NCBI RefSeq assembly: GCF_014117445.1
Contig: NZ_CP059851.1
Coordinates: 992,001 to 1,056,000 of the forward strand
Length of the DNA stretch: 64,000 nucleotides
Direction of reading: 5' to 3'
Source of the DNA: Sandaracinobacteroides saxicola
GTDB lineage: Bacteria; Pseudomonadota; Alphaproteobacteria; Sphingomonadales; Sphingomonadaceae
Below the pieces are notes generated by a model, which worked only from the letters and a program-made list of their open reading frames with translations, searched no databases and was not told where the DNA came from. This document shows positions 1 through 51,354 of the stretch, one piece after another. Numbering within the stretch: the stretch's first letter is position 1; every line of letters begins with the position of its first letter. Both the position numbers and the translations under genes were made by a program.

Positions 1-2
1 TG

Positions 3-131
3 TTGCACGACAGCGGCACGGAGGCCGGCGCCGCGGTGGTCGACATCGACCTGGCGCAGGTGGCGGACATCCGCGCCCGCATCCCGGCGCTGGCGCACGC
101 GCGAAGCCTGCCGACGGTGGCGCGCTGGTGA
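3..131 (+). CDS. Carbon-nitrogen hydrolase (nitrilase superfamily), C-terminal fragment
   Basis: Only the last 42 codons lie in the window; the reading frame enters at base 3 and ends at TGA 129-131. The visible tail contains VVDIDLAQVADIRARIPAL followed by a short SLPTVARW end, which is how Nit/amidase-type hydrolases close: a beta strand presenting the acylated product to the next subunit, then a helix with an R-x-x-I-P-x-L pattern. The catalytic Glu-Lys-Cys residues lie upstream of the window. The stop overlaps the GTG start of the DUF1178 gene (GTGA), so the two are translationally coupled. Family is likely; substrate cannot be judged. Confidence 0.75.
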   Translation: MHDSGTEAGAAVVDIDLAQVADIRARIPALAHARSLPTVARW

Positions 132-592
132 TCGTGTTCGACCTGAAATGCGGGCAGGCCCATGTGTTCGAGGCCTGGTTCGGCAGCAGCGACGATTATG
201 CCGCGCAACAGGCGCGCGGGCTGGTCAGCTGCCCCATCTGCGGCGACGCCCGGATCGAAAAGGCGCTGATGGCGCCCGCGGTCGCCGCCAAGGGCAACCG
301 GCTGGCCAGTTGCGACAATGCGGCGAGCAAGGCGCGGTTGGCCGAACTGGCGCGGCAGCAGGCCCGGATCGAGGCCGATTTCACCTGGGTCGGCCGCGAC
401 TTCGCCCGCCAGGCCCGCGACCTGCACGAGGCGCCGGCAAACGATGCGCCCCCCGCTGAAGCCGTTCCGAAACCCCCACCGCCAAAGGGCATCTACGGCG
501 AAGCCACCCTCTCCGAAGCCCGCGCCCTGGTGGCCGACGGCGTGCCGATCGCGCCGCTGCCGTTCAGGAGCCGACGCAGCGCGGATGCGTGA
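128..592 (+). CDS. DUF1178 family protein
   Basis: A 154-residue protein beginning MIVFDLKC, with a cysteine cluster (C8, then CPIC near residue 36) followed by an IEKALMAPAV segment. This layout is typical of the DUF1178 family, which looks like a small zinc-ribbon-type protein but has no established function. The C-terminal part is proline rich and then ends with a conserved-looking YGEATLSEARALVADGVPIAPLPF block. The GTG start at 128 overlaps the nitrilase stop. The nitrilase/DUF1178 adjacency is common in alphaproteobacteria, which supports both calls; the role remains unknown. Confidence 0.85.
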   Translation: MIVFDLKCGQAHVFEAWFGSSDDYAAQQARGLVSCPICGDARIEKALMAPAVAAKGNRLASCDNAASKARLAELARQQARIEADFTWVGRDFARQARDLHEAPANDAPPAEAVPKPPPPKGIYGEATLSEARALVADGVPIAPLPFRSRRSADA

Positions 593-599
593 GGGGCGG

Positions 600-634
600 T
601 TGCCCATGCCAGGATCGTCTATTACACTGTAATA
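600..634 (+). promoter_or_regulatory. Promoter with overlapping palindromic operator before parD
   Basis: TTGCCC at 600-605 is separated by exactly 17 bases from TACACT at 623-628, a good sigma-70-like pair. The -10 box lies inside the perfect 15-bp palindrome TATTACACTGTAATA at 620-634, about 20 bases before the antitoxin start. A palindrome over the -10 box is what is expected for autorepression by a ribbon-helix-helix antitoxin. The assignment is inference from position and symmetry. Confidence 0.55.
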
Positions 635-653
635 CAGGTGTGGAGCGTGTCGG

Positions 654-899
654 ATGAGCCAGCGGGAAGGATTGGCGAGTGTGAGCCTGGGGTCGGCCAA
701 GGCCATCGGGCAGCGGCTTGTTGCCGAGGGACGGTTCGACAATCTGTCGGAGGCGTGCCGTGCGGGGCTGCGAAGGCTCGAGCAGGATGAGCGCGTTGTG
801 GACCGCCTCGTCGCCCTTGGCGCGGCAGGCATGGCCAGCGGCATCGATGACGGCTTTGACATCGATGCCTTCGTCGACGCCATGCCCGCTGAATCGTGA
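654..899 (+). CDS. parD: ParD-like antitoxin (type II toxin-antitoxin)
   Basis: An 81-residue protein with an N-terminal strand (ASVSLGSAKAIGQRLVAEGRFDNLSEACRAGLRRLE) that matches the ribbon-helix-helix pattern of ParD/CopG antitoxins, followed by an acidic tail (GIDDGFDIDAFVDAM) suited to wrapping a ParE toxin. It would bind DNA as a dimer to repress its own operon and neutralise the toxin. The stop overlaps the GTG start of the next gene by four bases (896-899), the classic antitoxin-toxin arrangement. The palindrome at 620-634 is the probable operator. Confidence 0.85.
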   Translation: MSQREGLASVSLGSAKAIGQRLVAEGRFDNLSEACRAGLRRLEQDERVVDRLVALGAAGMASGIDDGFDIDAFVDAMPAES

Positions 900-1189
900 G
901 GCTGGCCTGGTCGAACGTTGCCCGGCAGGAACTGGAAGAAGTTCGGCGCTATTCGACGCAGACCTGGGGCGCCCCTGTCGCCCGTCGCTACCTTGAAGAT
1001 GTCCGCGATGCCGCCAAGGCCGCGGCCGAACGCCCGGAACGCGCACGGCCGTTGCGCGATGATTTTCGGATCCTGCGCGTTCGCTCCCACTATCTGATCC
1101 TGCACATCAACCCGAGCCTGCGGCGCGTCACGATCGCCCGCATCCTGCATGTGGCCATGGATATCGAACGGCATTTGCCAAAGGATTGA
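896..1189 (+). CDS. parE: ParE/RelE superfamily toxin
   Basis: A 97-residue basic protein with the pattern WSNVARQELEEVRRYSTQTWG, then RPLRDDFRILRVRSHYLILHI, and finally VTIARILHVAMDIERHL. These blocks match the ParE fold: two N-terminal helices, a beta sheet with an R-x-x-x-Y-x-I strand, and the I-x-R-I-L-H motif near the end. ParE toxins usually poison DNA gyrase, though RelE-like relatives cleave mRNA; the sequence alone does not decide. The GTG start overlaps the antitoxin stop. It is the last high-GC gene before an AT-richer segment. Confidence 0.85.
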   Translation: MRLAWSNVARQELEEVRRYSTQTWGAPVARRYLEDVRDAAKAAAERPERARPLRDDFRILRVRSHYLILHINPSLRRVTIARILHVAMDIERHLPKD

Positions 1190-1527
1190 CATGGCGTGGG
1201 TGCGTTATGAACCGGCGGACCTCGGGCCTCGAAGCTGGACATTCGCGAGCCAGTTCATATCTCCCAAAAGCTACCATTCGTTTGATGGCGCAAAATGAAC
1301 CAGTTCGGCCGTCTTCTGCCAGTTTGGTTCATAGCATCACAGTTAGGAAATCTGACATTTGGACGAACCAATGGCTCAGTCAGGAGCCGCTGACATAGCC
1401 GCCGTTCCAGGAAGCAAAGAAGCCTCGTAACGTGCACCCTTTGATTGTTCACGGTATTGGGTTGCACTTGGCGGCACCTCGTGATTGAGTTTGCATTCTG
1501 GGGCTTGAAAATCGGTGGCGGGGCGTC
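1190..1527 (+). other. 338-bp non-coding region with short inverted repeats upstream of the reverse transcriptase
   Basis: No credible gene is seen. The stretch is less GC rich than the ParDE genes. It holds a series of related short inverted repeats: TATGAAC (1206-1212) with GTTCATA (1253-1259), ATGAACCA (1295-1302) with TGGTTCAT (1325-1332), and TTGGTTC (1324-1330) with GAACCAA (1365-1371). The last two pairs share an arm and so could form alternative hairpins. Several defence reverse transcriptases depend on a structured RNA encoded next to the gene, so this region is a candidate for such an RNA. No convincing promoter was found. Confidence 0.4.
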
Positions 1528-3141
1528 ATGAAAGATCGGTGGGGACTAATACAGCGTGGACTTTTCCCAGAAACATTGCCACCTTGTTACACATCGATAG
1601 ACCTGAAACGTGCATTCTCTGGCTTGGTGCGAACACTCAAGACAAAGGAGCTGCACAAGGGTCGGCAATCCGATTACGTGCGATACAATGGTACGAAACA
1701 TGACGGCAGCCGACGTTACTTTGGAACGCCAAATCCTATTTCCTATTTCTATGTTGCTAATTTCATAGCTAATCATTGGGTCGAATTCGAAGCAAGATTC
1801 AACAGTTCGCCGTTCTCGGTCAGTACGCCGAGAATTGGCAAGCCAACCGATGATCGGCCTGTGATCATACCCTCACTTTCCGAGCTGACAACGGTCGCCT
1901 CGAAAAAGCTCGGGCGATCCGCTTTCATTCTCAAGACTGATATTGCTCAGTTTTTCCCTAGCATCTATACGCACGCAATTGCTTGGTCGGCACACGGCGT
2001 TGACATTGCGAAGGCAGACACAAGCCCTACCTCAGTAACTAACTATTTTAACCAGCTCGATTTCTTCGTGCGCAACTGCCAACTCGCAGAGACTCGCGGC
2101 GTGTTGGTGGGTCCTGACGCATTTCGCCTCGTTAGTGAGTATATCGCATCTGGGCTTGACAGCGAAATTTTTGCCGACACGGGTGGACACATCATCGGCG
2201 CGGCGCGCCACGTCGATGACTATTACATCGGCCTTGGCAGCGAGATTGCTGCCCTCGCGACGCTCTCGGTCTTGCGCGATAAGCTTCAGCGCTACAGCCT
2301 TCATATAAATGATGCGAAGACTAAAACTATGCTCAGCACCGAGCCGCTGAATGATATCTGGGCGCAGAGTCTGCGAAGGGAGTCACGGGAGGTGGGGGGC
2401 TATTTCCGCCAAACTGATGACATCATCTTGTTTTTGGATCGCTCGCTCGATCTTGCTAAGCAGCTCTACACCGACAGCCCCATCAAAATCGCCCTGCGGA
2501 CGATGGACAAAATCAAGCTTTATAACCTTTCCGATTGGGAGGTTGTCGAACCGTACTTGCAGCGTGCGCTTTTTCACCACTCACACTCTATCGACTACAT
2601 CGCGTTACTCGTGGCTAAGCGCGTCTCTATTGGTAAGCAAATAGATCGTGAGGGATGGAGGGCTGCTGCTTACGATTTGATTGCGCGACACCTTCCGCTA
2701 AACCATCATCATGAAGTCGTATGGTTAGTCTGGATGCTCCTTGTTTCGCGTCTCGCATTGTCCGACCAGCTCGTTGATGCTCTATCGCAAAATGATAACG
2801 CACACGTTCAAGCCTTGGTTGTTGCTGCATATCTCGATGGCCTTGTTGATCGACGGCCACCCATCCGCCTTGGGGCGCGATTGGCCACCACTGATAATCG
2901 GTGGCTTCTAAACCTTGTGGCACGGGCAAGGGGTTACAGTGGCGCCGCATTCAGCGGCGCGCTAGCTGGTGAGTTTCAGCACATAGCCGACAAGCATGTG
3001 AAGTTGATCGACTTCAAAGCCCATATGAAGTCAGTCCAGCTGGGAAACGTGCAGGCCATCAGCCGCACCCGGTACGGTTACGACAACGATGATGAGGAGG
3101 AAGACGGGGACAATTGGGACGATATTAATGAAGTATTTTAG
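1528..3141 (+). CDS. Reverse transcriptase of the Abi/UG (defence-associated) type
   Basis: A 537-residue RNA-directed DNA polymerase. The polymerase core shows SRRYFGTPNPISYFYVA (about 61-77), motif A with LKTDIAQFFPSIYTH (136-149, catalytic D138), a motif-B-like RGVLVGPDAF (190-199) and motif C HVDDYY (228-233, D230 and D231). The FFPSIYTH block recalls the Abi and unknown-group (UG) reverse transcriptases, including DRT defence systems, more than group II intron or retron enzymes; no maturase or endonuclease domain is seen. Residues from about 300 onward are helical with no recognised enzyme motif, perhaps an alpha-repeat domain, and the last 20 are very acidic. Codon use is AT richer than both flanks, suggesting recent transfer. 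The exact class is unresolved. Confidence 0.85.
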   Translation: MKDRWGLIQRGLFPETLPPCYTSIDLKRAFSGLVRTLKTKELHKGRQSDYVRYNGTKHDGSRRYFGTPNPISYFYVANFIANHWVEFEARFNSSPFSVSTPRIGKPTDDRPVIIPSLSELTTVASKKLGRSAFILKTDIAQFFPSIYTHAIAWSAHGVDIAKADTSPTSVTNYFNQLDFFVRNCQLAETRGVLVGPDAFRLVSEYIASGLDSEIFADTGGHIIGAARHVDDYYIGLGSEIAALATLSVLRDKLQRYSLHINDAKTKTMLSTEPLNDIWAQSLRRESREVGGYFRQTDDIILFLDRSLDLAKQLYTDSPIKIALRTMDKIKLYNLSDWEVVEPYLQRALFHHSHSIDYIALLVAKRVSIGKQIDREGWRAAAYDLIARHLPLNHHHEVVWLVWMLLVSRLALSDQLVDALSQNDNAHVQALVVAAYLDGLVDRRPPIRLGARLATTDNRWLLNLVARARGYSGAAFSGALAGEFQHIADKHVKLIDFKAHMKSVQLGNVQAISRTRYGYDNDDEEEDGDNWDDINEVF

Positions 3142-3156
3142 TCGATTAACGGCATT

Positions 3157-3360
3157 ATGACTAACCCACAGGACCTTAAACAAAAAGTCGGCTATATTCC
3201 AAATTTGTTCGCGAGTTCTGGAATACCAGCAATGTCCGATATTGCGGATACGGTCGATGCTCGGGCTGACATCTGCTTTCGGGAAATCCGCGAAACGTTT
3301 GAACGACTGAAATGGACATACGCAGGCCAAGTTGTAACGTCCAACATGCGGACGGCATAG
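3157..3360 (+). CDS. Small uncharacterised protein downstream of the reverse transcriptase
   Basis: A 67-codon frame starting with ATG 15 bases after the reverse transcriptase stop, on the same strand and with the same low GC content. The predicted product begins MTNPQDLKQKVGYIPNLF and contains a helical, charged middle (EIRETFERLKW). No family is recognised, and no strong ribosome binding site precedes it. It could be an accessory protein of the island, the remnant of a larger gene, or chance. Confidence 0.35.
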   Translation: MTNPQDLKQKVGYIPNLFASSGIPAMSDIADTVDARADICFREIRETFERLKWTYAGQVVTSNMRTA

Positions 3361-3471
3361 TGTAGGGCGTCCTCAAAAGCCATTTTTTGCTCTCCACCCT
3401 AAATCAGCAATGAAAAGCAAGCCCATCGCAATCTTGCACCCGCGCCCCCACTCGCGCAAAAGGACACCCGT

Positions 3472-3548
3472 GGTCCCGTAGCTCAGCCGGATAGAGCGCC
3501 CGTTTCCTAAACAGGAGGCCGCAGGTTCGAGTCCTGCCGGGATCACCA
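3472..3548 (+). tRNA. tRNA-Arg (anticodon CCT)
   Basis: A 77-base cloverleaf including an encoded CCA end. Acceptor arms GGTCCCG and CGGGATC pair with one G-T wobble; the D stem is GCTC/GAGC; the T stem is GCAGG/CCTGC with loop TTCGAGT. The anticodon loop TTCCTAA places CCT at positions 34-36, reading AGG codons. The anticodon stem CCCGT/ACAGG contains a C29-A41 mismatch. It marks the downstream limit of the AT-richer island, although the island lies on its 5' side rather than at the 3' end normally used by integrases. Confidence 0.95.
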
Positions 3549-3724
3549 CCTTGACCGACTCGGGCCGCCTCCCCTATGGCGCGCGGCATGAACCGTTATC
3601 GCCCCAGGCTGCAGACCAACGTCACAATGTGACGGGCGCCTTGCTGCGCCCTTTCCACAGGGTGCAGCGCTGCCGGGGAAACGGCCTCCCAATCTCAGAG
3701 GCTCCACAGGTTCACACAGCGCCA

Positions 3725-3751
3725 CCCTGTTTCACCACCGAACGAACAGGG
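3725..3751 (+). promoter_or_regulatory. Hairpin overlapping the rtcB ribosome binding site
   Basis: CCCTGTT at 3725-3731 pairs perfectly with AACAGGG at 3745-3751, and the right arm runs into the AGGGAGA ribosome binding site of rtcB. Such a hairpin could limit initiation. The rest of the 211-bp gap after the tRNA shows no gene. Functional meaning is inferred only from position. Confidence 0.3.
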
Positions 3752-3759
3752 AGACCATC

Positions 3760-4980
<1,221 letters not shown>

Positions 4981-4982
4981 CA

Positions 4983-5040
4983 GCGCATCGCGGAAAAGTG
5001 GGAACCGGTTTTCCGCATCACGATGCGCGCCAACAAAAAG
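4983..5040 (+). repeat. Dispersed palindromic repeat (GGAAAAGTG / CGGTTTTCC type), copy 1
   Basis: Immediately after rtcB is a nested palindrome: outer arms GCGCATCG and CGATGCGC, inner arms CGGAAAA and TTTTCCG around GTGGGAACCGG. It is followed by CCAACAAAAAG. The same design recurs at 42676-42720, also directly after a stop codon and followed by ACAACAAAAAG. It may act as an mRNA-stabilising or terminating hairpin; similar palindromes are common behind alphaproteobacterial genes. Confidence 0.7.
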
Positions 5041-5052
5041 CAGGGATCGGCA

Positions 5053-6006
5053 TCACGCCATCAGGTCGATGTCGGTCCCCGCGCCCGCCGCGCGGGCGCG
5101 GGTGAGGAGGAGGGTGGCGGCGGCGAGGTCCTGCGCGGAGACGCCGAGCGATTTGTAGAGGGTGATGTCGGTGTCGTTACGTCGGCCGGTGGCGCGGCCG
5201 GCGGCGACGGCGCCGATCTCGGCGAGGATATGGTCCTCGCCCACCAGCCCGGCGGCCATGGCGCGCTTCAGCTCGCCGGCGGCGGCGAGCGCGGCAGGGC
5301 GGTAGTCCACCACGAAGCGCGCCGCGGCGACGGCGGCTTCGTCGATCTCGGCATGCTCGGCAACCGCGCTGCCCACCAGCGTCAGATGCTGGCCGGGGCG
5401 CAGCCAGGCGCCGCGCACCAGCGGCTCGCGCGCGGCGGTGGCGGTGACGATGATGTCGGCCCGCGCGACGGCGGTTTCCAGGTCGGTCACGGCCTCGGCC
5501 TCCTCGCTTGCGGCGAAGGCGGCGGCGCGGGCGGCATCGCGTGCCCACACCAGCGCCCGCTGCACCCGACGTGTGGCCCGCAGCGCCCGCAGGTGCCAGC
5601 GCGCCTGCTCGCCGGCGCCGACCAGTAGCACGCTCTCCGCATCCGCCCGCGCCAGCAGGTCGGTCGCCATCGCACTGGTCGCCGCGGTGCGGATCGCGGT
5701 CAGGCTGCCGCCCTCGATGATCGCCACGGGAAGGCCGTCGGCGGCATCGAACAGCAGCACCATGCCGACATGACTGCCGTGCACGCTGTCCGCCGCTCGC
5801 GGGAATTTCGCCACCAGCTTGACGCCGAACGCCTCCCCCAGCACGCCGGGCATGGTGGTGAACTTGCCTGCACCGACCGCCACGAACTGCCGCAGCGGCA
5901 TGGTGGCGCGGCCTTCGGACACCGCGATCATCGCGTCGCGCATGGCCTCGGCGCAGTCCGCCAGCGGCAGCAGGCGCTCGACGTCGCTGCGGGTGAGCAG
6001 CAGCAT
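5053..6006 (-). CDS. Ornithine cyclodeaminase / mu-crystallin family protein
   Basis: A 317-residue NAD(P)-dependent enzyme of the OCD/mu-crystallin family. The start MLLLTRSDVERLLPLADC leads to the K-x-x-x-x-P-region and then a Rossmann core with VLLVGAGEQARWHLRAL (about 122-138) and the VTATAAREPLVRGAWLRPGQHL segment. Members act on ornithine, proline-like imines, alanine or other 2-amino acids; the substrate cannot be assigned. It is the last gene of a three-gene minus-strand operon with a cupin and an alpha/beta hydrolase, and its start touches the cupin stop. The operon lies under one copy of the duplicated element at 7309-7356, so it probably belongs to the LysR-controlled catabolic set. 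Confidence 0.88.
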   Translation of the reverse strand: MLLLTRSDVERLLPLADCAEAMRDAMIAVSEGRATMPLRQFVAVGAGKFTTMPGVLGEAFGVKLVAKFPRAADSVHGSHVGMVLLFDAADGLPVAIIEGGSLTAIRTAATSAMATDLLARADAESVLLVGAGEQARWHLRALRATRRVQRALVWARDAARAAAFAASEEAEAVTDLETAVARADIIVTATAAREPLVRGAWLRPGQHLTLVGSAVAEHAEIDEAAVAAARFVVDYRPAALAAAGELKRAMAAGLVGEDHILAEIGAVAAGRATGRRNDTDITLYKSLGVSAQDLAAATLLLTRARAAGAGTDIDLMA

Positions 6007-49354: not shown

Positions 49355-49498
49355 GAAACTGTCCGATAAATCGCCCAGGGCGGGCTGCAAACGCCGATTT
49401 TCTGCGCTTCGATGCTCACGCACCGTAAGTGCGCTGCGCTTCGATGCTCGAAAATCAGCGTTTTCGCCTCACCCTGAGCAATTTCTCGAACAGTTTCT
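49351..49498 (+). repeat. Nested inverted repeat after the exonuclease gene
   Basis: AGAAACTGT (49354-49362) pairs with ACAGTTTCT (49490-49498); inside, AAACGCCGATTTTC (49389-49402) pairs with GAAAATCAGCGTTT (49450-49463) at 13 of 14 positions; between these, CTGCGCTTCGATGCTC occurs twice as a direct repeat (49402-49417 and 49434-49449). No gene is seen. Together with the cassette at 49529 it fills the 419-bp gap before the ligase. Confidence 0.65.
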
Positions 49499-49609
49499 GC
49501 GGCCGGAGGCGGCGACAGTCTGGAGCAGGATTGCGCAGCAATCGTGCAAAGACCTTCGACTCGCCGCAGTCCCGGACGACGGGCGGGCAAGGCCCGAGCC
49601 GTCCGACGA

Positions 49610-49644
49610 GTCGGCTTTGCCGACCTTTTCTTCTTTTCTTTTTC
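49610..49644 (+). terminator. Intrinsic terminator in cassette copy 3
   Basis: GTCGGC and GCCGAC pair perfectly around TTT (49610-49624), followed by CTTTTCTTCTTTTCTTTTTC. It should stop most transcription from the exonuclease gene before the ligase gene. Confidence 0.65.
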
Positions 49645-49719
49645 CTGCACCGGACCCGGCGGCTTTGCCGCGGGCCGGGGTGCGGGTGGGGAATGCATCG
49701 CTTTGACGTCATCGGCATC

Positions 49720-49764
49720 ACCCCTCCGTCCGCTGCGCGGCCACCTCCCCTTGCAGGGGAGGAT
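49720..49764 (+). repeat. REP-like palindrome
   Basis: CCCCTCCGTCCGCTGCGCGG leads into CCACCTCCCC and TTGCAGGGGAGGAT. The final GGGGAGGATCGAGGG also serves as the ribosome-binding region of the ligase gene. Confidence 0.6.
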
Positions 49765-49773
49765 CGAGGGACG

Positions 49774-51354
49774 GTGAACAGTTTCGCGCAGTTTGCCGAG
49801 TTGCTTGACGCGCTGGTGGTGACGCCGGGGCGGAATGCCAAGTTGCGGCGGATCGGCGAGACGTTGCGGGCGATGGCGGAGCCGGACCGGGGGTGGGCGC
49901 TGGCGGCGCTGACCGGCGAGCTGGACCTGCCGGCGGTGCAGCCGAGCGTGTTGCGGGCGTTGATGGAGGAAGCGGTCGATCCGCTGCTGTTCCGGTTGAG
50001 CCGGGACTATGTGGGGGACCTGGCGGAGACGGTGAGCCTGTTGTGGCCGTACAGCGACCCGGAGCAGCCGCCGGGGCTGGACGCGATGGTGGGCATCCTG
50101 GCGCGGCTGGGGCGGGCGGAGGCGCCGGGGGTGGTGCGCAACCTGTTGTCGCGGCTGGACATCACCGGGCGCTGGGCGTTCATCAAGCTGGCGACCGGGG
50201 GCATGCGCGTGGGGGCGGGGGCGCGGCTGGCGAAGCTGGCGTTCGCGCAACAATGGGGCGTGGATGTGGGAGAGGTGGAGGAGCTGTGGCACGGGCTGAC
50301 CCCGCCCTATGCCGAGCTGTTCGCCTGGGGCGAGGGGCGCGGGCCGAAGCCCGACCTGTCGGCGCGGGCGCTGTTCCGGCCCTTCATGCTGGCGCACCCG
50401 CTGGAGGCGCCGGAGACACTGCATGTGCCGGACTGGCTGGCCGAGTGGAAATGGGACGGCATCCGGGTGCAGGTGGTGCGGGTGGGGGGCGAGGCGCGGC
50501 TGTTCAGCCGGACGGGGGATGACGTGTCCGGCAGTTTCCCGGATGCGATCGCAACGCTGGCGCGCGACCTGGTGCTGGACGGCGAGCTGATGGTGCGGGG
50601 CGCCGATGGCGGGCTGGGCAGTTTCAATGCGCTCCAGCAGCGGCTGGGGCGGAAGGCGCCGTCGGCGAAATTGATGGCGGAGGCGCCGGCGTTTGTGCGC
50701 GCCTATGACCTGTTGTTCGATGGGGCGGAGGATGTGCGCGCCTTGCCGCTGATGGAACGGCGGGCGCGGCTGCGGCAGGTGGTGGCGGGGCTGGACCCGC
50801 TGCGGTTCGACCTTTCCGAGGACCTGGAGGCGGCGACGCTGGATGAGCTGGCGGCGCTGCGGGCGGCGGCGCCCGATCCGCTGATCGAGGGGTTGATGCT
50901 GAAGCGGCGGGACAGCGCCTATGTCGCCGGGCGGCGGGCGGGGCTGTGGTACAAGTGGAAGCGGGCGGCGCTGACCGCGGATTGCGTGCTGATGTATGCG
51001 CAGCGGGGCAGCGGCAAGCGCAGCAGTTTCTACAGCGATTTCACCTTTGGCGCGTGGACGGAGGATGGCGGGCTGCTGCCCGTGGGCAAGGCCTATTTCG
51101 GGTTCACCGACGAGGAGCTGAAGTGGCTGGACAAGTTTGTGCGGGCCCATACCGTCGCGCGGTTCGGCCCGGTGCGGGAGGTGGCGAAGACGCTGGTGCT
51201 GGAAGTGGCGTTCGACAGCATCGGCGAGAGCAGCCGTCACAAGAGCGGGCTCGCCATGCGCTTTCCGCGGATCAGCCGCATCCGGACGGACAAGCCGGCG
51301 GCCGAGGCGGATACGGTCAAGGGGTTGCGGGCGATGGTGGCGGGACAGGCGTGA
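49774..51354 (+). CDS. ATP-dependent DNA ligase
   Basis: A 526-residue ligase of the bacterial type that accompanies an exonuclease gene. The N-terminal domain (residues 1-190) is helical; the adenylation motif is LAEWKWDGIRVQVV with the catalytic Lys (K-W-D-G); later nucleotidyltransferase motifs are LDGELMV, FVRAYDLLF, EGLMLKRRDSAYVAGRR and GLWYKWKR; an OB domain with PVGKAYFGFTDEEL and GLAMRFPRISRIRTDK ends it. GTG 49774 was chosen for its GGGGAGGATCGAGGG ribosome binding site. It joins DNA ends in repair, probably with the exonuclease at 48350. Confidence 0.95.
   Translation: MNSFAQFAELLDALVVTPGRNAKLRRIGETLRAMAEPDRGWALAALTGELDLPAVQPSVLRALMEEAVDPLLFRLSRDYVGDLAETVSLLWPYSDPEQPPGLDAMVGILARLGRAEAPGVVRNLLSRLDITGRWAFIKLATGGMRVGAGARLAKLAFAQQWGVDVGEVEELWHGLTPPYAELFAWGEGRGPKPDLSARALFRPFMLAHPLEAPETLHVPDWLAEWKWDGIRVQVVRVGGEARLFSRTGDDVSGSFPDAIATLARDLVLDGELMVRGADGGLGSFNALQQRLGRKAPSAKLMAEAPAFVRAYDLLFDGAEDVRALPLMERRARLRQVVAGLDPLRFDLSEDLEAATLDELAALRAAAPDPLIEGLMLKRRDSAYVAGRRAGLWYKWKRAALTADCVLMYAQRGSGKRSSFYSDFTFGAWTEDGGLLPVGKAYFGFTDEELKWLDKFVRAHTVARFGPVREVAKTLVLEVAFDSIGESSRHKSGLAMRFPRISRIRTDKPAAEADTVKGLRAMVAGQA

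Follow-up and report, generated by a model that had tools for sequence, protein, structure and literature searches.

A DUF1178 gene and a tRNA-Arg(CCT) gene (3472..3548, forward strand; called as a tRNA and matched by Rfam) are separated here by an insert of 2879 bp (593..3471), at a place where the gap is short in most relatives, and the tRNA forms the right border of the insert. Positions throughout are those of the window, the whole 64,000-nt stretch of DNA that was analysed, and residues are numbered on the 537-aa protein described below. The insert carries a parD-parE pair (654..1189, forward strand; Pfam ParD 1.3e-9, ParE 2.6e-12), a reverse transcriptase (RT) gene and a small ORF. The parD and parE frames overlap by 4 bases and the segment that holds them (593-1190) has 64% GC, between the host and RT values; the pair is a neighbour of the RT and not a part of the DRT6 system discussed here. 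Beside the tRNA-Arg, on the right, lies a gene for an RtcB-type RNA ligase (3760-4980, forward strand; Pfam 2e-124), and an ATP-dependent DNA ligase (Pfam DNA_ligase_A_M, A_C) is encoded at 49429-51354, also on the forward strand.

The RT gene (1528..3141, forward strand, as are all the features within it) is an intact ORF that starts at ATG and encodes 537 aa. An earlier reading of this DNA from its letters alone, here called the sequence-only reading, had described a 537-residue RT with aspartates D138 and D230-D231, and that description holds, the frame being intact and all three catalytic residues invariant across 30/30 aligned sequences. Residues 1-276 (1528..2355) form the RT-like palm and fingers domain, its border at residue 276 placed by hand from the secondary structure of an AF2 model, and hhalign aligns residues 48-270 with AbiK. 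Motif A reads FFPSIYTH, and the stretch with its catalytic D138 (1939..1941) is TDIAQFFPSIYTH; motif B (R190-R200, 2095..2127) reads RGVLVGPDAFR, with an R190 that is specific to the clade defined below; and D230-D231 (2215..2220) lie in motif C, RHVDDYY. Both the motif A and the odd motif B (RGVLVGPDAF) of the sequence-only reading are as it gave them.

The AF2 model, built from 30 aligned proteins of the window and the loci (mean pLDDT 90.3, pTM 0.90), shows residues 277 to about 504 as helices, which constitute a C-terminal alpha-repeat domain (277-504, 2356..3039; pLDDT mostly >90). This is followed by the motif AISRTRYGYD (residues 510-519, 3055..3084), which contains the candidate priming tyrosines Y516 and Y518, and by an acidic tail (520-537, 3085..3138) that is D/E-rich in relatives also, disorder being predicted for residues 518-537 (pLDDT <50). 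The long helical C-terminal half with an acidic tail that had been proposed from the letters is therefore recovered in the model, and its helical domain matches that of the solved DRT6 protomer.

Assignment to the DRT6 family

The sequence-only reading had recognised a defence-type RT of the Abi/UG (DRT) kind and left its class unnamed. On the evidence of profile, fold and tree, the product of ORF 1528-3141 almost certainly belongs to the DRT6 family, which we take to be the same as UG12. PADLOC scores it highest with the Drt6 profile (7.2e-141; 468.5 bits, covering profile positions 5-509 of 511), ahead of Drt4 (283 bits), UG30 (146), AbiK (113) and Drt3b (95). Pfam RVT_1 gives 27.2 bits, slightly below its cut-off of 29.6, and the NCBIfam Drt4 equivalog gives 179.5 bits and does not reach its cut-off of 450. 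Among solved structures the AF2 model best matches 9wy8 (Foldseek E 1.9e-26), entitled 'Cryo-EM structure of the hexameric DRT6', with which it aligns by VIA at Z 39.0 over 487 aa and 2.5 A, across both the RT-like and the alpha-helical repeat domains. DRT4 (Z 32), UG15 (29), AbiK (26) and Abi-P2 (24) are also matched, and the best RT outside the Abi/DRT group, among the matches listed, is a DGR enzyme at Z 15.7.

Other classes were considered and set aside. A retron RT is contradicted by the profiles (retron_St85 16.7 bits against a cut-off of 235, with no further retron model at E 0.1), as is a group II intron RT (13.9 bits against 300), and by fold the retron, DGR and group II chains match more weakly and mostly in part; placement among these enzymes, which the sequence-only reading had named as one outcome that would count against it, was not what we found. 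DRT4 is ruled out by the PADLOC profile, the NCBIfam cut-off and the tree.

Relatives and phylogenetic position

Near relatives at 44-70% identity are present in several families of Alphaproteobacteria, in one cyanobacterium, in three Bacteroidota and on one viral contig. One IMG/VR contig carries a relative at 48% identity, and 184 plasmid and 2 phage records contain no place above 60% identity. Within the order, the Drt6 model finds something in 63/396 genomes at E 0.001, mostly weak matches, and those weaker matches that were scanned (L046, L049, L051, L053, L054, L057, L061 and L063) are Drt4, Drt3b or Drt8. Matches at E 1e-120 or better occur at 11 places, the window included, among which L040 alone joins the clade of the window protein.

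A tree from which the C-terminal columns had been removed unites the window protein and 18 further rows in a single long-stemmed clade (100/100), which extends over three phyla, includes one row from a viral contig, and is split from three Drt4 rows at 100/100. This 19-row clade may be nested among the other Drt6 rows or be their sister, a branch that sets those other rows apart being present in 28% of bootstrap trees. PADLOC ranks Drt6 first for all 13 clade rows scanned (of 19), with 455-497 bits, and ranks the expected label first for 15/15 other Drt6, 3/3 Drt4, 4/4 Drt3b and 2/2 Drt8 rows and for the AbiK row. DRT6 is an already named and structurally solved defence family, of which this locus is an ordinary member; what is new here, as judged from the alignment, is a deep DRT6 subclade with an invariant C-terminal AIS..(R/K)YGYD motif and with residues of its own at the positions that most probably correspond to those by which DRT3b selects bases.

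The composition of the trees requires some explanation. A first quick tree put Drt3b inside Drt6 on long branches, and the tree was rebuilt minus the long rows and minus the columns from residue 500 onward. The first tree had already dropped L018 (broken frame), L047 and L048 (internal stop), L041 and L071 (own matches), the duplicates L068 (the L005 gene), L072 (equal to L070) and L019 (the L045 gene), and the partial or other-class matches L050, L052, L055-L060, L062 and L064; the rebuilt tree additionally lacks L074, L075, L077, two Drt8 and four Drt3b rows. The sequences used for L004, L040 and L066 lack part of the N-terminus, which in L004 leaves an alignment gap at residues 14-15, where its DNA continues as FPEVLPP. 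The frame of L066, a Drt6 relative in genome G774, runs far upstream and gives 728 aa from its first ATG, with an Arg/Gly-rich beginning; this start is probably wrong.

Acquisition of the insert

The RT gene has a GC content of 51.5%, with 53.7% in the sequence before it (1191-1527) and 47.5% after it (3142-3360), compared with 68.9% for 3549-64000. To the right of the island, 589 segments of the gene's own length (1614 bp), spaced at 100 bp, reach down to 61.8% at the lowest, so the dip at the gene lies outside the local range; GC3 is 0.57 in the RT, 0.86 in DUF1178 and 0.91 in RtcB. The GC-poor segment of the sequence-only reading is thus real, and its composition differs from that of its surroundings in the window (3549-64000) rather than equalling it. 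However, the RT gene has less GC than the remainder of its locus in 18/18 measurable loci (L002-L017, L065 and the window, with L040 and L068 left out), by 1 to 30 points and in loci ranging from 36% to 72% GC, and for this reason low GC is weak evidence of recent transfer.

Gene order provides the better evidence. Of the 21 other genomes of the same family that have a DUF1178 match, twenty were compared at that place (all but G023), and in 18 of these a tRNA-Arg(CCT) follows DUF1178 on the same strand within 0.9 kb. The distance from the end of the DUF1178 match to the tRNA is 39-187 bp in 16/20, and 558 and 878 bp in two; the two without a called tRNA are L095, in which the contig stops 1.0 kb further on, and L099, which retains a 38-base tRNA piece. 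These observations support acquisition of the RT gene within an insert that lies between DUF1178 and tRNA-Arg(CCT), and the break in synteny, together with the patchy distribution of the gene, is better evidence of transfer than low GC. The sequence-only reading had proposed a defence cassette acquired by transfer: the insertion stands, on synteny more than on GC, while 'cassette' is generous for a single gene accompanied by parDE and a small ORF.

Several other features of this region were seen. Where the gap measures 39-187 bp, as in 16 relatives, there is no space for parDE. The two longer intervals between DUF1178 and tRNA-Arg(CCT) belong to L098 and L107 (558 and 878 bp), and an ORF in that of L098 resembles a PEP-CTERM secreted protein, a label given by eye; the interval may be a variable site, to judge from these sequences. 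In L099 (G017:C1:1861500-1864400) the 38-base piece, which matches tRNA-Arg at 92%, adjoins DUF1178, and the tRNA gene there may be interrupted or split. The right neighbour of the tRNA differs too, since an 81% RtcB homologue in G003 lies about 290 kb from tRNA-Arg. With regard to the means of insertion, Pfam and NCBIfam scans of four ORFs of the insert found no integrase. Integration at tRNA genes usually targets the tRNA 3' end; this insert is 5' of the tRNA, and repeats within 600-4000 are short and unconvincing, so att-type integration was rejected.

A probable stand-alone gene

Nothing around the RT gene recurs with it. Flanking DNA of 20 loci, reaching at most 500 bp upstream of the gene and 600 bp downstream (blastn with word size 7 and E 0.01), shows no similarity, even between loci whose proteins are 70% identical, and the sole match, L005 with L068, is one locus present twice. 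A comparison of neighbouring ORFs within 4 kb (1068 stop-to-stop frames with a minimum of 60 aa, from 19 loci; E 1e-4) finds no partner gene that recurs in at least three of the 19 neighbourhoods; the sequence around the gene was shorter than this on one or both sides for L003, L005, L009, L013, L040 and the window. Matches between neighbouring ORFs link just three pairs of loci (L009-L014, L010-L012 and L014-L017), none of them with the window; a cruder ORF pass had also linked L006 to a gene of the window that lies 3.4 kb downstream, a match absent from the stop-to-stop set. L010 and L012, loci of an alphaproteobacterium and a cyanobacterium, both encode a long protein close to the RT (56% identity between the two over 661 aa), at 28-3012 after the RT in the former and about 1-3 kb before it in the latter. 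Promoter and terminator scans gave counts close to shuffle level. The small ORF of the insert (3157-3360, 67 aa) matches nothing in Pfam or NCBIfam at E 0.1 and is present in its own genome alone, 1/147 genomes of the order.

Other DRT enzymes, namely DRT2, DRT9 and DRT10, copy a cis-encoded ncRNA, and unassigned low-GC sequence does flank this gene on both sides, so that such an RNA might be sought in the 339 nt upstream or the 330 nt downstream. We consider an RNA-templated enzyme very unlikely. Rfam at gathering score returns nothing from 1-6000 except tRNA, the flanks are not conserved among the 20 loci, and the fold groups with the template-independent Abi, DRT4 and DRT6 enzymes; an ncRNA-templated class 2 system was rejected on the first two of these grounds. 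The results from flanks and neighbours fit ORF 1528-3141 as a putative stand-alone RT, that is, a single-gene system, with room for a fast-evolving RNA. This is also how the family is described elsewhere: one review has DRT4 and DRT6 organised as a single gene (PMC13213688), and another gives DRT6 as one RT (PMC13314766).

That the gene might be decayed or domesticated, and have no role in defence, is suggested by its company, for among six ORFs scanned there is the parDE pair but no other recognised defence gene adjoining, and the 67-aa ORF downstream, unmatched in 146 other genomes of the order, might be a remnant. We nevertheless regard decay or domestication as very improbable. The frame is full-length with every catalytic residue retained, dN is 0.23-0.34 against four relatives (dS is saturated, and dN alone is quoted), and the gene has a patchy spread over three phyla. 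A predicted role for ORF 1528-3141 in the defence of its host against phage is, on our estimate, quite probable.

The C-terminal motif and its proposed role in priming

Over the 19 clade rows the mean majority share is 0.93 in AISRTRYGYD, compared with 0.90 in motif C and 0.85 in motif A, and it falls to 0.33 in the ten residues before the motif and 0.29 in the eighteen after it. AIS and YGYD are present in 19/19 rows, and in the eight sequences compared the codons vary synonymously with the residues kept. L066, L067 and L069, which are Drt6 from outside the clade, have YD and an acidic tail aligned at Y518. Another 12 Drt6 rows remain, and in all of these but L077 at least one of the final four residues is Tyr (11/12), where composition predicts 14% per row (naive binomial 5e-9, which treats related rows as independent). 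The DRT6 chain of 9wy8 likewise ends in an acidic tail containing Tyr, the structural alignment stopping at its residue 495. Y518 itself sits within the low-confidence stretch of the AF2 model.

Precedents for protein priming come from several relatives. DRT3b, which is 667 residues long, attaches its DNA to Y666 in the C-terminal tail, and once this residue is changed (Y666F) the adduct, the synthesis of poly(CA) and defence are all lost (preprint PMC13174585); DRT9 probably primes on the C-terminal Y496/Y498 (PMC12483538). By analogy with these, a C-terminal tyrosine of the ORF 1528-3141 protein may be its primer, and we put the chances of this at about even. The position is not identical, for the priming tyrosine of DRT3b is penultimate, whereas 19 residues follow Y518. 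Nor can a C-terminal tyrosine prime for every DRT6, since L077, a clear Drt6 (454.7 bits against 352.8 for Drt4), lacks Tyr throughout its final 40 residues.

Priming could take place elsewhere in the protein, and L077 argues in this direction. AbiK and Abi-P2 carry out protein-primed, untemplated synthesis from Y44 and Y61 respectively, in a mobile loop near the fingers (PMC9508834), and a tyrosine of the N-terminus or the fingers, for example Y53, which precedes a conserved GTKHD, might serve DRT6 in the same way. Y53 is Tyr in 19/19 clade rows, and in a count over 17 clade rows Y53, Y73, Y147, Y233, Y332 and Y357 are each invariant (17/17). The YGYD motif could instead serve oligomerisation or regulation, either in the assembly of a trimer or hexamer or as a sensor that keeps the enzyme off until infection, and the C-terminal residues of DRT1 are structural and regulatory according to PMC13275509. 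The same source has DRT1 able to prime on serine, so the primer need not be a Tyr at all. We hold this set of alternatives to be possible and the less favoured course: position 53 is F or I in 8/15 other Drt6 rows, the segment around AbiK Tyr44 has no counterpart in the MAFFT alignment (a poorly aligned region; hhalign begins at AbiK 81), and the C-terminal Tyr pattern is common to DRT3b and DRT9. The literature searched, outside which lie the primary DRT4 and DRT6 papers, contains no statement on the DRT6 primer, and two reviews (PMC13213688 and PMC13314766) describe the product and mechanism of DRT6 as less resolved than those of DRT4, or as unresolved. A conserved motif at the opening of a disordered tail makes the question of DRT6 initiation a matter of two residues.

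The nucleotide pocket

In DRT3b, residues E22 and R241 select dA and dC (preprint PMC13174585). In the alignment R241 most probably corresponds to the motif B R200 of the present protein, a position that is Arg in 19/19 clade rows, 15/15 other Drt6, 4/4 Drt3b, 2/2 Drt8 and the AbiK row, and T, N or S in 3/3 DRT4 rows. Since AbiK has this Arg and yet makes random products (PMC9508834), the motif B Arg alone sets no sequence. E22 most probably corresponds to T16, in E15-T16 (1570..1575), an equivalence derived from PMC13174585 by alignment, and here the clade departs from the family: position 16 is T or V in 19/19 clade rows but E, D or N in 15/15 other Drt6, and the solved DRT6 has Q. R190 occurs in 19/19 clade rows and in none of the remaining rows (44 in all), and at position 199 the clade has F, Y or H, against S in 15/15 other Drt6.

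On these residues the 19-row clade is a candidate variant in base choice, and no more. A bolder proposal, which we think rather unlikely, is that the subclade would be a functional variant of DRT6 in which a pocket rebuilt at T/V16, R190 and F/Y/H199 but keeping the R241-like switch R200, combined with internal priming at a YGYD that an acidic tail follows, lets the protein set the composition or order of its DNA. Were this so, the DNA would be unlike both the random DNA of DRT4 and the poly(CA) of DRT3b, and there would be another protein that acts as a template; the pocket changes of the clade would also predict which bases get added.

Proposed mechanism

Our preferred explanation is that of a stand-alone DRT6 borne on an insert, which makes DNA without a template, primes on a C-terminal tyrosine and defends against phage; we give the whole of this a probability of about 0.6, and its parts differ in strength. 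By analogy with DRT4, DRT6, DRT3b, AbiK and DRT9, the helical domain would hold the protein together as a trimer or hexamer, and the oligomer would polymerise single-stranded DNA in the absence of a nucleic-acid template, template-independent synthesis being in itself a likely property of this protein. Synthesis would start on a tyrosine hydroxyl in AIS..(R/K)YGYD, with Y518 the first choice and Y516 the second, and the flexible tail would leave the priming tyrosine free to reach the active site. Upon infection by phage, DNA would accumulate and the infected cell would be arrested or killed. A trigger is described in two reviews, in which the phage protein ORF55 activates DRT4 and DRT6 (PMC13213688 and PMC13314766).

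Comparison with known systems

The closest known system is the DRT6 of 9wy8, with which the protein shares its best profile and fold over both the RT and helical domains and, at the level of the locus, the lack of a recurrent partner gene, although identity is only about 25%. From DRT6 at large it is distinguished by features specific to its clade, namely T/V16, R190, F/Y/H199 and the YGYD motif. DRT4/UG15 (9vdo, 9vdv and 9l9s) has the bilobal fold in common, at Z about 29-32, but forms a separate clade at 100/100; two reviews (PMC13213688 and PMC13314766) describe DRT4 as a single gene that carries out template-independent DNA synthesis. AbiK and Abi-P2 share the palm, fingers and helical domains, at Z 26 and 24, yet the AbiK profile scores a mere 113 bits. 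DRT3b/UG8, in contrast, is half of a two-RT system with DRT3a and an ncRNA, and the Drt3b profile gives 95 bits for the present protein; what DRT3b and DRT9 do have in common with it is the pattern of a C-terminal tyrosine.
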